A stretch of 64,000 nt of DNA, taken from NCBI RefSeq assembly GCF_001984175.1, contig NZ_MTQP01000064.1, positions 124,001-188,000 of the forward strand. Reading direction: 5' to 3'. How positions within the stretch are numbered: the stretch's first letter is position 1; each line of letters opens with the position of its first letter. Shown piece by piece: positions 10,469 through 61,694 of this stretch. Under the pieces are notes generated by a model, which ran no database searches, was not told where the DNA came from, and worked only from the letters and a program-made list of their open reading frames with translations. The translations under genes were made by a program, and so were the position numbers. Source of the DNA: Saccharothrix sp. ALI-22-I (GTDB lineage Bacteria > Actinomycetota > Actinomycetes > Mycobacteriales > Pseudonocardiaceae).

Positions 10469-11095
10469 GTGGATGCGCCGACGCGCGAGTACGTGGAGCG
10501 CTACCTGCCCGAGGACGCCGTGGTCAAGGCCGCCAGGGCTCGTGGCGCCGAGTTGGGATGCGTGCCGATCGGGTCCGGCGGCGGGGCGGCGTTGCGGTTC
10601 CTCGCCGCGGCGTTGCAGGCCAAAGCCGTGGTCGAGATCGGCACGGGCGCCGGTGTCGGCGCGTTGTACCTGCTCGGCGGCATGCCCGCGACCGGCGTGC
10701 TGACCTCGATCGATGTCGCGCCGGAACACCAGCGGGCGGCGCGGGTGGCGTTCGCGGAGGCGGGCATCGCGGTGTCCCGGACCCGGTTGATCATGGGTCG
10801 GGCGCTGGAGGTGCTGCCCCGGTTGACCGACGGCGCGTACGACCTGGTGTTCGTGGACGCGGCCAAGTCGGAGTACCCGAAGTACCTGGAGGAGGGCGTC
10901 CGGCTGCTGCGGCCGGGCGGGGTGATCGCGTTCGACAACGTGCTGTGGCACGGACGCGTGGTCGACCCGTCACAACGGGACCCGGACACGGTGGCGATGC
11001 GGGAAGTGGCGCGGGCCGTGCGGGACGACGACCGCCTGGTGGCCGTGATCCTGCCCTTGGGCGACGGGCTGCTGGTAGCGGCAAAGACCGCCTGA
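10469..11095 (+). CDS. SAM-dependent O-methyltransferase (class I, methyltransferase_3)
   Basis: A 208-residue Rossmann methyltransferase. The SAM-binding motif VEIGTGAGVGALYLL (near residue 55) is followed by the acidic SIDVAPEHQ, then DLVFVDAAKSEYPKYLE with the metal-binding Asp, and FDNVLWHGRV, all typical of the catechol/caffeoyl-CoA O-methyltransferase-like family. The start is the GTG at 10469, 7 nt after TAGCCT (10456-10461), so the transcript is probably leaderless. It is divergent from sigE, the same neighbourhood as in mycobacteria (Rv1220c). The substrate is unknown. Confidence 0.9.
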   Translation: MDAPTREYVERYLPEDAVVKAARARGAELGCVPIGSGGGAALRFLAAALQAKAVVEIGTGAGVGALYLLGGMPATGVLTSIDVAPEHQRAARVAFAEAGIAVSRTRLIMGRALEVLPRLTDGAYDLVFVDAAKSEYPKYLEEGVRLLRPGGVIAFDNVLWHGRVVDPSQRDPDTVAMREVARAVRDDDRLVAVILPLGDGLLVAAKTA

Positions 11096-11228: not shown

Positions 11229-11242
11229 CGAGCCAGGCAACG

Positions 11243-11353
11243 GCTTCGCAGGGGTCCTCGCCAAGGGGACCCCTGCTTTTATCCTGCCGGAGGGGTCCGA
11301 CAATTTCGCGTGGTCAGAGCGCCGCTGTGGATAACCGACCGGGTTGTGGACAG
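11243..11353 (+). repeat. Dispersed hairpin/DnaA-box repeat, copy 1
   Basis: The element starts GCTTCGCAGGGGTCC. A perfect 10-bp stem (11248-11257 with 11267-11276, 9-nt loop) is followed by TTTT, resembling a terminator. The conserved core continues to GACAATT, then a 19-nt spacer, then CTGTGGATAA, the reverse complement of the DnaA box TTATCCACA (11326-11334). A one-mismatch box follows at 11345-11353. AGGGGTCC at 11291-11298 could pair with the second stem arm instead. The remaining spacer, 11354-11495, is G-rich with degenerate GGCGGTCGCGGACAGG-like units and no gene. Confidence 0.85.
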
Positions 11354-23077: not shown

Positions 23078-23623
23078 TCAGCCGGCCCGGAAGCAGGCCG
23101 CGATGTGGTCGTCGACCATGCCGGTGGCCTGCATCAGCGCGTAGCAGGTGGTGGGGCCGAGGAACACGAAGCCGCGGCGCTTCAGCTCCTTGGCCAACGC
23201 CTTCGACTCGGGCGTGACGGCGGGCACGTCGGCGATCGTGGCCGGCCGTTGGTGGTGTTCGGGCGCGAACGACCACAGCAGGTCGTCCAGCGGCACGTCG
23301 AGTTCGGCGATCGCGCGGGCGTTGTTGATCGTGGCGTTGATCTTGGCCCGGTTGCGGACGATGCCCGCGTCGGCCATCAGCCGGTCGAAGTCGGCCGGCC
23401 CGAACTCGGCCACGAGCTTGGGCTCGAAGCCCGCGAACGCGGTCCGGAAGTTCTCCCGTTTGCGCAGGATGGTGATCCAGGACAGACCGGACTGGAACGA
23501 TTCGAGCGCCATCCGCTCGAACATCGCCACCTCACCGTGCAGCTCGACACCCCACTCGGTGTCGTGGTACTCGATGTAGTCCGGCGTGCTGTTGCCCCAC
23601 GGGCAGCGGACGAGGTCGGTCAT
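23078..23623 (-). CDS. tag: DNA-3-methyladenine glycosylase I
   Basis: A 181-residue base-excision repair enzyme that removes N3-methyladenine from DNA. It begins CPWGNSTPDYIEYHDTEWG, the family start with the Zn-binding Cys and His, and ends with MVDDHIAACF, which supplies the second His/Cys pair. The core ESFQSGLSWITILRKRENFR is diagnostic. The ATG at 23623 has GGGAG upstream. It lies in the usual actinobacterial context near the DivIVA-like and DUF3117 genes. Confidence 0.95.
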   Translation of the reverse strand: MTDLVRCPWGNSTPDYIEYHDTEWGVELHGEVAMFERMALESFQSGLSWITILRKRENFRTAFAGFEPKLVAEFGPADFDRLMADAGIVRNRAKINATINNARAIAELDVPLDDLLWSFAPEHHQRPATIADVPAVTPESKALAKELKRRGFVFLGPTTCYALMQATGMVDDHIAACFRAG

Positions 23624-23656
23624 GCGGTGCACTCCCAGGCGGCACGGTATGGCGCT

Positions 23657-23767
23657 GCTTCGCGAGGGTCCCCGCCAGGGGGACCCCCGGTTTTGATCCT
23701 GCCGGCTGGGACCGACAATTCCGGGTCGTCGAGCCACACCTGTGGACAACTGCCGGGCTGTGGATAA
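23657..23767 (+). repeat. Dispersed hairpin/DnaA-box repeat, copy 2 (two DnaA boxes)
   Basis: GCTTCGCGAGGGTCCC begins the element; GGGTCCCC pairs perfectly with GGGGACCC, and TTTTGATCC follows. The conserved core ends GACAATT. After the 19-nt spacer comes CTGTGGACAA, giving the actinobacterial DnaA box TTGTCCACA in reverse (23741-23749), and a second box TGTGGATAA at 23759-23767. It lies upstream of tag but in the opposite orientation, between two minus-strand genes. Confidence 0.85.
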
Positions 23768-27511: not shown

Positions 27512-29120
27512 TCGGCGGTACGCGGTCGTTCTCGGTGTGTTGGCGGTCGTCACGGCGGTGGTCGTGTTGGGGCAGGCCGAGGTGTTGGCTTCGGTGCTGT
27601 CCGGTGGCTGGTCGGCGTGGTGGCTGGTGGCGGTGGTTGTGGCGCGCGGGGTCGTGGTGTGGGGCGGGCGGGTCGTGACGCAGCGCTTCGCGTCGTCGAC
27701 GAAGGCTTCTCTGCGCAAGCAGGTGCTGCGCGGTTCTGCCGGGCCGTCGGTGCGGGCCGGGTCGGTGGTGACATTGGTGGTGAAGGGGCTGGACGCGGTC
27801 GAGCCGTACTTCGCCGGGTACCTGCCCCAGCTCGCGGTGGCGGCCGTCGTGCCGGTCGCGGTGGTGGTGCGGCTGTCGTTCGCCGACCTGACGTCGGCAG
27901 TGGTGGTCCTGGTGACGTTGCCGCTGGTGCCGGTGTTCGCCGCGCTGGTCGGGCTGCACACCCGCGATCGGACGCGGGCGCAGTGGGCCGGGTTGGCGGT
28001 GCTGGGCGGGCATTTTCTGGACGTGGTGCGCGGGTTGGGCACGTTGAAGGTGTTCGGGCGGGCGGCGGCGCAGGCCGGGACGGTGCGGGCGATGGCGGGG
28101 GCGCACGCGGCGTCGACCATGCGGACGTTGCGGGTGGCGTTCCTGTCGGCGTTGGTGTTGGAGCTGGTGGCGACGCTGTCCGTGGCACTGGTGGCGGTGC
28201 CGGTGGGGTTGCGCCTGCTGCACGGCGGGGTGACGTTGCAGGTGGCGCTGTTGGTGTTGTTGCTGGCACCGGAGGCTTACCTGCCGTTGCGTTCGGCCGG
28301 CGCGCAGTTCCACGCGTCCGCCGAGGGATTGGCGGTGCTGGAGGCCGCGGCTGCGCACGGACCCCCGCCCAGCGCTTCGCACGGGTCGCCGCCAAGGGGA
28401 ACCCTTGATTTGATCCTGCCAGAAGGGACCGACAAATCCACGCCATCGGGCACGGCCTGTGGACAACCGGCCGTCCGGCACGCCGTGACGGTGACCGGGG
28501 CTCGGGCGCCGGACCTGCGGACTGCCGAGATCGTGGTGGACCGGGTGGTGGTGCGGTATCCGGGGCGGGACGCGCTGGGTGGGATGTCGTTGCGCATCAC
28601 GCCTGGTGAGCGGGTGGCGTTGGTGGGGCCGAGCGGGGTCGGGAAGAGCACGTTGCTGGCGGTGCTGATGGGGTTCGTGACGCCCGCGTCCGGGCGAGTG
28701 CTGGTCGGTGGGGTGGACTTGCGGGAGGTGGACCGCGAGTCGTGGTTGCGGCAGCTCGCGTGGGTCCCGCAGCGGCCGACGCTGTTCCCCGGCACGGTCG
28801 GGGAGAACATCGCGTTGGGGTCTGGCGGTGGCGTTCGGGACGTTCGGGCTGCGGCTGCGGCGATGGGGTTGGAGCACTTGGTCGATGCCGAGCACGCTCT
28901 GTCGTCGGGTGAGCGACAGCGGGTGGCGTTGGCGCGGGCGCTGGTGCGGGACGACGCTCGGATGCTGCTGTTGGACGAGCCGACGTCCCGGTTGGACAGC
29001 GGGACCGAGGAGGCCGTGCTGCACGCCACCCGACGGCTGACGTCCGGACGCACGGCGTTGATCGTCGCGCACCGGCCGGTGATGCTCGGCGAGGTCGACC
29101 GGGTGGTGGCGTTCGGGTGA
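27498..29120 (+). CDS. cydD: ABC exporter subunit CydD (cysteine/glutathione-type, needed for cytochrome bd assembly)
   Basis: A 540-residue half-transporter: six predicted membrane helices in the first 270 residues, then a nucleotide-binding domain with Walker A GPSGVGKST, Q-loop AWVPQRPTLF, signature LSSGERQR and Walker B MLLLDEPTS. CydDC exports thiols (and possibly binds haem) for bd oxidase maturation. Residues 293-323 are unlike any homologue: they are encoded by repeat copy 3, a 93-bp insertion that keeps the frame, in the linker before the NBD. The start is a GTG inside cydB and the end overlaps cydC. Confidence 0.93.
   Translation: MRHVDRRYAVVLGVLAVVTAVVVLGQAEVLASVLSGGWSAWWLVAVVVARGVVVWGGRVVTQRFASSTKASLRKQVLRGSAGPSVRAGSVVTLVVKGLDAVEPYFAGYLPQLAVAAVVPVAVVVRLSFADLTSAVVVLVTLPLVPVFAALVGLHTRDRTRAQWAGLAVLGGHFLDVVRGLGTLKVFGRAAAQAGTVRAMAGAHAASTMRTLRVAFLSALVLELVATLSVALVAVPVGLRLLHGGVTLQVALLVLLLAPEAYLPLRSAGAQFHASAEGLAVLEAAAAHGPPPSASHGSPPRGTLDLILPEGTDKSTPSGTACGQPAVRHAVTVTGARAPDLRTAEIVVDRVVVRYPGRDALGGMSLRITPGERVALVGPSGVGKSTLLAVLMGFVTPASGRVLVGGVDLREVDRESWLRQLAWVPQRPTLFPGTVGENIALGSGGGVRDVRAAAAAMGLEHLVDAEHALSSGERQRVALARALVRDDARMLLLDEPTSRLDSGTEEAVLHATRRLTSGRTALIVAHRPVMLGEVDRVVAFG
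28374..28466 (+). repeat. Dispersed hairpin/DnaA-box repeat, copy 3, inside cydD
   Basis: GCTTCGCACGGGTCG through TGTGGACAA (DnaA box TTGTCCACA in reverse, 28458-28466) matches the other copies, with the same 19-nt spacer. The element is 93 bp, exactly 31 codons, encoding ASHGSPPRGTLDLILPEG and on to CGQ. The stem is degraded to about 4 bp here, so it would not terminate transcription within the operon. Confidence 0.85.
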
Positions 29121-33079: not shown

Positions 33080-33120
33080 CAGCGCAGGCTGCGCCGGGGC
33101 CGACCGGGCTCGACGGTCAT

Positions 33121-33212
33121 GCTTCGCAGGGGTCCTCGCCAAGGGGACCCCTGCTTTGATCTTGCCAGAAGGGTCCGACAATTGCGGGTGCTCGGACGCG
33201 GCCTGTGGACAA
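33121..33212 (+). repeat. Dispersed hairpin/DnaA-box repeat, copy 4
   Basis: The element begins GCTTCGCAGGGGTCC with the perfect 10-bp stem seen in copy 1 and a CTTTGATC run after it. The core ends GACAATT, the 19-nt spacer follows, and TGTGGACAA (DnaA box TTGTCCACA in reverse) lies at 33204-33212. It sits 41 bp after the hydrolase stop and in the same direction, a terminator-like place. Confidence 0.88.
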
Positions 33213-33309
33213 GTGCCGAGCGTGGCCCGTGCTCGACGCGAACCTGACCCGCGGACCTGACCCGCGAACCTGACAGCGGTTGACAGGATTTCCTGCCAGG
33301 ATCCCCGCC

Positions 33310-61056: not shown

Positions 61057-61563
61057 GTGTTGCTGGAGACCGAGCGGTTGGCGTTGCGCGCGTTCGTCGA
61101 GTCCGATGTGGACTCGTCAGCCTGGTTGCTCGGTGAGCCGCGGGTGATGCGGTACATCGAGGACGGCAAGCCGGTGTCCCGGGCCGACGTGGAGCGCGTC
61201 GTGCTGCCGAAGGTGCTGGCCGGCGGCTGGTGGGCGGCGCACGAGAAGGCGTCGGGCGCGTTCATCGGCTGGTTCGAGCTGAGTGCGGTGTCGGGGGGTG
61301 TGGCCGAGTTGGGCTATCGGCTACACCCCGACTTCTGGGGCCGCGGCTACGCCACCGAAGGCGCGTCCGCGCTGGTGGCTTGGGGTTTCGCGACCGGGTT
61401 GGAGCGGATCGTGGCCTACACGATGACCGTGAACACCGGGTCGCGGCGGGTCATGGAGAAGGTCGGCCTGAAGTACGTGCGGACGTTCCACGAGGAGTGG
61501 CCGGACTACATCGAAGGCGCCGAACACGGCGACGTCGAATACGCCCTCGACCTCAACCGATGA
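61057..61563 (+). CDS. GNAT family N-acetyltransferase (RimJ/RimL-like)
   Basis: A 168-residue GNAT protein starting LLETERLALRAFVESD, the RimJ/RimL-like start. Motif A is LHPDFWGRGYATEGASALV, followed by AYTMTVNTGSRRVMEKVGL, typical of the family. The GTG start lies 4 nt after the permease stop, so it may be co-transcribed with the ABC genes by read-through. Repeat copy 5 follows the stop immediately and probably ends the transcript. Confidence 0.92.
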   Translation: MLLETERLALRAFVESDVDSSAWLLGEPRVMRYIEDGKPVSRADVERVVLPKVLAGGWWAAHEKASGAFIGWFELSAVSGGVAELGYRLHPDFWGRGYATEGASALVAWGFATGLERIVAYTMTVNTGSRRVMEKVGLKYVRTFHEEWPDYIEGAEHGDVEYALDLNR

Positions 61564-61645
61564 GCTTCGCAGGGGTCCTCGCCAAGGGGACCCCTGCTTT
61601 GATCTTACCGGCGGGGTCCGACGATTTCGGTGCGGAGTCGGGCAC
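61564..61645 (+). repeat. Dispersed hairpin repeat, copy 5, without a DnaA box
   Basis: GCTTCGCAGGGGTCC starts one base after the GNAT stop codon, with the perfect 10-bp stem and CTTTGATC following. The core is GACGATT here instead of GACAATT. The 19-nt spacer position is kept, but the expected DnaA 9-mer is replaced by CGGGGCGCA, so this copy has no box. It lies in a convergent spacer, where it could end both transcripts. Confidence 0.82.
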
Positions 61646-61694
61646 CGGGGCGCATTCAGGCAGGTGAATGGTCCTTTCAGTCGATGACCGCGAC

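Follow-up and report, generated by a model that had tools for sequence, protein, structure and literature searches.

We found that a short repeat, which occurs five times within the window (the whole 64,000-nucleotide stretch analysed here, positions 124001-188000 of contig C61 of genome G000, 10.3 Mb), carries a DnaA-type box at a fixed distance from its conserved core, and our data confirm that the repeat and its fixed-distance box are real. The repeat is best read as an old, spreading unit that would join a terminator to an antisense promoter. We give a probability of roughly 0.55 to the reading that it forms a two-sided transcription boundary, made of a terminator hairpin and an antisense promoter of the activator-dependent type. 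Read along the preceding gene, the repeat would act as a hairpin of the intrinsic-terminator type. Its opposite strand would present TTRTCCACAG, usually 60-61 nt before the +1 and sometimes with a second box 18-19 nt farther out, then TTGTCRG of the RecA-NDp/PafBC type, a YANNNT -10 and a +1 at the first hairpin bases. We hypothesize that PafBC, activated by single-stranded DNA after damage, would fire the unit, with the box occupied by DnaA or by a regulator sharing its 9-mer, and that the hairpin-capped transcript would run back into the 3' end of the terminated gene. This antisense product would matter. A minority of units face a gene in sense.

A dispersed repeat with a fixed-distance box

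The five copies, starting at 11243, 23657, 28374, 33121 and 61564, can be aligned from GCTTCGC to GACAATT and score 84-106 bits against a covariance model (R1) of 32 copies, which include these five and all come from this genome (30 loci and 2 from the window); the dispersed repeat reported by the first-pass annotation is therefore real. Its single orientation holds within the window, where all copies lie on the same strand (Table 1), but not genome-wide, as strong copies are found on both strands of contig C61. Rfam 15 gave no match in the window at gathering score. We considered DUF222/13E12 genes as a parent of the repeat and rejected them; neither box nor core was present at the two fetched loci of this genome's two DUF222 genes, one locus being cut by a contig end.

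Table 1. Window copies of the repeat and their parts (positions within the window)
Feature	Position	Strand	Score (bits)	Box	TTGTCRG element	-10	Predicted +1	Hairpin	Site and remarks
Copy 1	11242-11337	-	104 (model R1)	TTATCCACA 11326-11334	TTGTCGG 11297-11303	CAGGAT 11281-11286	11274	11248-11276	convergent; O-methyltransferase gene (+) / AraC-type regulator gene (-)
Copy 1, opposite reading: intrinsic-terminator-like hairpin	11248-11286	+						12 pairs, loop 5, tail TTTTATCCTG	same strand as gene ending at 11095
Copy 2	23656-23767	-	94.8	TTGTCCACA 23741-23749 and TTATCCACA 23759-23767, 18 nt apart	TTGTCGG 23712-23718	CAGGAT 23696-23701	~23689		orientation exception; sense toward methyladenine glycosylase gene (-, called 23078-23623; Pfam Adenine_glyco)
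Copy 3	28373-28469	-	84	TTGTCCACA 28458-28466	TTGTCGG 28429-28435	CAGGAT 28413-28418		degenerate	in frame within ABC-transporter gene (called 27537-29120, +)
Copy 4	33120-33215	-	106	TTGTCCACA 33204-33212	TTGTCGG 33175-33181	CAAGAT 33159-33164	33152	33126-33154	41 nt past S15-peptidase-like gene (+)
Copy 5	61563-61658	-	92.8	none	TCGTCGG 61618-61624	TAAGAT 61602-61607	61595	61569-61597	GCTTCGC directly abuts stop codon of GNAT acetyltransferase gene (+, ends 61563)

By sequence match, four of the five window copies contain the DnaA site TTRTCCACA. This 9-mer, which we take to be that of actinobacterial DnaA, occurs five times in the 64 kb, always on the minus strand and always in copies 1-4 (twice in copy 2). 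Since 0.19 occurrences are expected and 0 of 100 shuffles reach five, the earlier statement that all perfect boxes of the window lie inside copies, far above chance, is borne out. We collected 99 distinct copies from several genomes with a weight matrix of the core alone and found a box (one mismatch at most) in 60 of them, 52 with a perfect match. Relative to the start of the core, it lies at -29 in 49 copies and at -30 in 11, always on one strand; other upstream windows hold one in 0.8% of cases. Fourteen of the 99 have a further box at -48. The box is absent from 39 copies, so the earlier claim of a 9-mer conserved at a fixed distance holds for most, not all, copies. By eye, 17 of 21 perfect boxes on contig C61 lie inside copies. 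Boxes relative to a reversed control number 149/34 (this genome), 141/49, 100/30, 68/22 and 56/22 in five genomes with copies, and 43/15, 44/29, 44/17, 44/18, 45/22, 46/21 and 76/23 in seven genomes without; heavy carriers are thus richer in boxes, yet one repeat-free species exceeds two carriers.

The first-pass annotation also described a terminator-like hairpin in every copy. Copies 1, 4 and 5 fold into a 12-pair hairpin of -27 kcal/mol (z -5.3 to -4.7), whereas copy 2 forms a weaker hairpin (z -1.5) and the best fold of copy 3 is a different one (z -1.0). When 1 kb surrounding copy 1 was scanned for terminators, its hairpin was recovered. The repeat thus shows a G+C-rich hairpin followed directly by a T run 3' of a gene, as in intrinsic terminators, though weakly in copies 2 and 3. 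Compensatory change was found in one of 14 hairpin pairs, and this near-absence of covariation gives no RNA-level proof of the stem. Stem wobbles may be asymmetric by strand (45 versus 27, 26 at one position). By eye, pairing of the core GGACCCC with a hairpin arm is unsupported because position 9 varies without compensation. Outside the window, at C61:337398-337480 (L049), a terminator-like hairpin, box and promoter are again joined in sequence unrelated to the repeat: boxes are paired, and the inner box occupies the loop of CCCCCGAG-TTGTCCACAG-CTCGGGGG, 61 nt ahead of the start codon of a protein that by eye is SAF/CpaB-like.

The whole-genome covariance-model search proposed by the first-pass annotation returned 99 matches in this genome, perhaps a lower bound because only 104 candidates were scored. 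The same model gave 0 to 86 matches per genome in 23 other genomes of the genus, seven of which hold no unit, and weak matches in 2 of 16 order-level genomes outside the family. A search of 60 family genomes with stricter filters, under which this genome has 69 matches, returned matches in 12 of them, this one included; the 11 others represent nine other genera and their matches are mostly weak. An exact-pattern scan of named genomes yielded ten stretches, all from Saccharothrix (Pseudonocardiaceae). Among 11 diverged loci from other genera, by eye, just three (L297, L300, L301) have the box, with a TANNNT -10, and another (L305) resembles a gene start. Ten weak model matches lie at 28-189 kb of G022:C1, all on one strand and several about 5 kb apart. 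One of these loci (L191) resembles by eye part of the acyltransferase domain in a modular polyketide synthase, with a box, TTGTCGGAC-N8-TAGCGT and a palindrome in frame.

A promoter-like core and its distance from the box

The consensus of the LexA-independent DNA damage promoter is summarised as tTGTCRgtg, 8 nt and TannnT (PMC5656591). PafBC, for which single-stranded DNA is the activating signal, is outlined as acting at this promoter and contacting a -26 motif together with sigma-A polymerase (PMC6789036, PMC11804915). On its minus strand, the repeat core reads TTGTCRG, ten bases, YANNNT and then the hairpin, and thus closely resembles this RecA-NDp (PafBC) promoter. TTGTCRG stands at consensus spacing from a -10 with A second and T sixth in four of the five window copies, copy 5 being one base off; across the 99 copies, which were found by this core, the A and T reach 0.99 and 1.00. 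The first -10 base is C in copies 1-4 and in 84% of the 99 copies, and T in copy 5 only; position 10 is C in 91%, where the consensus has G. No window copy matches every capital of the consensus, as copy 5 reads TCGTC. Since the first -10 base is mostly not T, we describe the repeat as probably working like a RecA-NDp promoter and do not class it as a member.

The strict pattern TTGTCRG-N10-TANNNT occurs 39 times in this genome, compared to twice for the reversed pattern. By eye, eight of 30 sites examined are repeat copies, while others precede genes, including those for UvrC, UvrA and two NAD-dependent ligases (Pfam). The uvrC gene and both ligase genes have their start codon 29-30 nt past the first T of the pattern; the longest uvrA frame begins 125 nt past it. 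One ligase site (L291) carries the repeat's variant TTGTCGGACCCC. Promoters of the RecA-NDp type at L270, L276, L291 and others in L263-L292, several of them leaderless, make up a predicted damage regulon. At G000:C64:857723-857831 (L288, L289), a repeat copy is followed 86 nt on by a second promoter of this type, TTGTCGGACCTCGTTGCTAGCGT, 29 nt ahead of a start codon, which would make the two tandem promoters. Another copy (L274) lies upstream of a tyrosine recombinase gene.

The box has a ruler of its own. The pattern TTRTCCACAG-N50/51-ATG occurs 143 times compared to eight for the reversed pattern, in 52 of 60 Pseudonocardiaceae genomes sampled, and a box 60-61 nt before leaderless starts could be an operator of DnaA or another regulator. 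Paired boxes are present also in repeat-free species (G012, G016). In 20 stretches fetched mostly for paired boxes, the inner box lies 60 or 61 nt upstream of a start codon in 11 (three pairs among these look orthologous), as it does at C61:337417; three of the remaining stretches are repeat copies and six fitted neither arrangement. A second, looser box stands 18-20 nt upstream in 25 of 34 instances with a frame of at least 60 amino acids, a set that contains two loci in duplicate and may include short frames that are not genes. Loci of this promoter class are L214, L216, L218-L223, L226, L227, L229 and L233-L262. Ten downstream proteins were scanned and matched SLBB+HHH (ComEA-like, with a TIGR01259 score below cut-off), UPF0102/YraN, DUF4192, SAF, DUF559, M23 peptidase and DeoC aldolase; three had no Pfam match. 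A DUF4192 gene of this genome fits the pattern as well. Some genes under these box promoters are DNA-uptake genes, the control of which is described as little known in actinobacteria, as summarised in PMC12849477.

In the repeat, the box lies 60-61 nt from the predicted +1 (60 in all four window copies with a box). Damage-promoter spacing and box distance therefore give one and the same +1 at the hairpin foot, and this agreement between two separate rulers is our main argument for a promoter. The majority consensus of box-bearing gene promoters contains no TTGTCRG, and the box is absent from 22 of 22 non-repeat RecA-NDp-type sites examined, so the combination is special to the repeat.

After noticing that 8 of 8 strict-TA copies examined were without a box, we compared box and -10 post hoc, with orthologous copies that are not independent. 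Where the -10 begins with T, 1 of 11 copies carries the box; where it begins with C, 57 of 83 do (Fisher p 2e-4; this genome alone, 0 of 4 versus 25 of 33, p 0.007). The -10 hexamer averages 4.18 A/T of six without a box and 3.35 with one (p 2e-5; this genome p 0.04). Copies with an inexact TTGTC have the box in 25 of 33 cases versus 35 of 66 with an exact one (p 0.03), and in this genome alone TTGTC exactness is unrelated to the box (p 1.0). The first hairpin arm shows no box-linked difference (p 0.70). Such a trade-off between box and -10 is expected if the box compensates for a weak core promoter.

Orientation, turnover and competing explanations

We examined the orientation of 87 copies to genes predicted by a simple codon-based gene caller, having dropped from the 99 those scoring below 38 (10) or without flank (2). 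Nine lie within genes (five and four by strand) and 78 are intergenic. Of the latter, 71 follow a gene in the orientation of a terminator, 40 in convergent and 31 in tandem arrangements; the stop codon is no more than 264 nt away for 62 of them and more distant for nine. The joining of a terminator-like hairpin to a fixed-distance DnaA-type box is thus supported as anatomy, and in this orientation the predicted promoter would face back into the preceding gene. Seven of the 78 are in sense toward the next gene and none is divergent; in this genome alone, 27 of 29 intergenic copies are in terminator orientation. Sense cases include the window glycosylase and genes that by eye resemble cmk and ppx.

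Flank matches gave 44 orthologous pairs (19 groups, 50 copies). Gapless identity is lowest in flanks (0.32-0.36), intermediate in the spacer (0.505) and highest in core parts (0.69-0.97), the last being inflated because copies were found by their core. Box identity is 0.957 in the 23 pairs preselected for a box in both members; without preselection, the box region is 0.62 identical versus 0.41 just upstream. Thirteen groups are uniform in box state (eight with, five without) and six are mixed. Just 3 of 14 C61 copies have a counterpart on the collinear G005 contig, whereas in the region common to this genome and G013, 7 of 11 do (coordinate reading). Together these data indicate both turnover and retention of the unit. 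The in-gene ABC-transporter copy was read in eight species, absent in five and unreadable in four. All eight orthologues with the copy keep the box 9-mer in frame as TGT-GGA-CAA, although their T run and hairpin decay. Across 51 window genes, these codons have usages of 14%, 3% and 12%. L088 has two boxes, the first ending in CAG and the second in CAA. In L087, L088, L089 and L090, the ABC-transporter linker insertion is enlarged by tandem repeats (AQGSP-type, ASASAS).

A selfish REP- or MITE-like repeat with no host role, spread by a transposase, would account for part of this picture: its motifs would be self-serving or relics, and gene 3' ends would be tolerated insertion sites. We regard this explanation as possible but doubtful. 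The range of 0 to 99 copies inside one genus, the few coinciding copies on the collinear contig, the in-frame insertion in one gene and the presence of in-gene copies in both orientations speak for it. So do the sites on G005:C58 (~37.8-38.5, 157.8, 185.9 and 308.2 kb) that by eye may carry other hairpin repeats where this genome has a copy (AGATCAAAAG..GTCCTCGCCGGACGGGCAGATCAGCAGGATGA, plus a long GGGGGGCGC inverted repeat). Self-serving motifs are, however, hard to reconcile with a box state held in most orthologous groups despite diverged flanks, with rare codons retained in the in-gene copy, with the trade-off between box and -10, and with an orientation of 71:7 without a divergent site. 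By eye, the 99-copy profile has no matching terminal inverted repeats, its conserved ends being GCTTCGC and the box side. A clean target duplication is also missing: one site has ambiguous short repeats, and empty sites and intergenic flanks are too diverged.

The first-pass annotation had instead proposed terminators with DnaA sites that titrate DnaA, mark replication-transcription conflicts or couple termination to the cell cycle, and had suggested a map of strand and distance from the origin. In four complete genomes with chromosomes treated as circles, the map gave no leading/lagging bias (14/36, 19/35, 9/22 and 6/14 copies leading, from 36/40, 35/43, 22/34 and 14/18 matches after rows below 39 bits were dropped; 14, 18, 9 and 6 leading if read as linear), but density does rise toward dnaA (KS p 4e-4, 5e-5, 0.045 and 1e-3). 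That gradient, the box's presumed identity with the DnaA 9-mer, the presence of these 9-mers around dnaA and the excess of boxes in this genome fit titration or conflict marking, although nearness to dnaA may reflect core-gene density alone. Because strand bias is missing and the box is placed like a promoter element, just as in repeat-free gene promoters, these functions are unsupported as stated; with seven of 23 other species of the genus lacking any unit, we consider them unlikely. We judge it more improbable still that the palindromes at the +1 (GGGGTCCCC, GGGGACCCC) are operators of a repressor and not an RNA hairpin. The near-absence of compensatory change would fit operators, as would the other-genus loci L298 and L300, which by eye keep the first palindrome at the +1 with the second arm lost, but the T run and terminator orientation are then left unexplained, and Watson-Crick pairing accounts for 936 of the 1044 stem cells in the genus (87 copies).

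Several observations weigh against our preferred reading, a terminator joined to an antisense promoter: the incomplete match of every window copy to the strict consensus, the 39 copies without a box, the separate occurrence of box and TTGTCRG outside the repeat, the mixed box states among orthologues and the near-absence of compensatory change. The trade-off between box and -10 and the lower box identity without preselection shift its probability in opposite ways. The reading allows a wider proposal that we put forward only tentatively. About 100 units would form a genome-wide net, each ending a transcript and firing antisense after DNA damage or when the cell is in a competence-like state. 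The box would link most of them to a DnaA-type regulon with comEA-, yraN- and pilus-type (SAF) genes, placing DNA-uptake genes and dozens of antisense promoters under one upstream signal.

Relation to known systems

Each part of the unit is known, while the combination was not found described in the literature searched by titles and abstract openings, which is not proof of absence. If our reading is true, dozens of genes carry at their 3' ends a damage-type promoter wired in by a mobile repeat, a regulon overlooked by gene-centred annotation. REP/BIME-type repeats are many-copy hairpin repeats at gene 3' ends with a GTAG-type hairpin foot. Our repeat shares the hairpin, location and copy number with them, but no GTAG-type foot was seen and promoter-like motifs lie inside it. 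The datA/DARS clusters of DnaA boxes and DnaA-regulated promoters contain the TTRTCCACA 9-mer, sometimes in tandem, as does the repeat. Unlike these systems, however, the repeat usually has a single box in each copy. This box stands at a fixed -60 relative to a promoter-like core and is coupled to a terminator-like hairpin.

With the RecA-NDp/PafBC promoters of mycobacteria and other actinobacteria, the repeat shares TTGTCRG, its spacing to a NANNNT -10 and a +1 where leaderless repair genes start. It differs from them in a mostly C-first -10 and in C, not G, at position 10. It also adds an upstream DnaA-type box, places a hairpin instead of a gene at the +1 and is dispersed in about 100 copies. 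The most similar class is that of MITEs with promoters, for example the Correia elements (CREE/NEMIS) of Neisseria, outlined as short dispersed repeats that can supply a promoter, bind host proteins and also occur within genes (PMC2649163, PMC2229807). As far as these outlines go, our repeat is like them short, dispersed, promoter-like and present also in genes; it is set apart from them by the lack of terminal inverted repeats or an established target duplication and by its strict orientation to genes.
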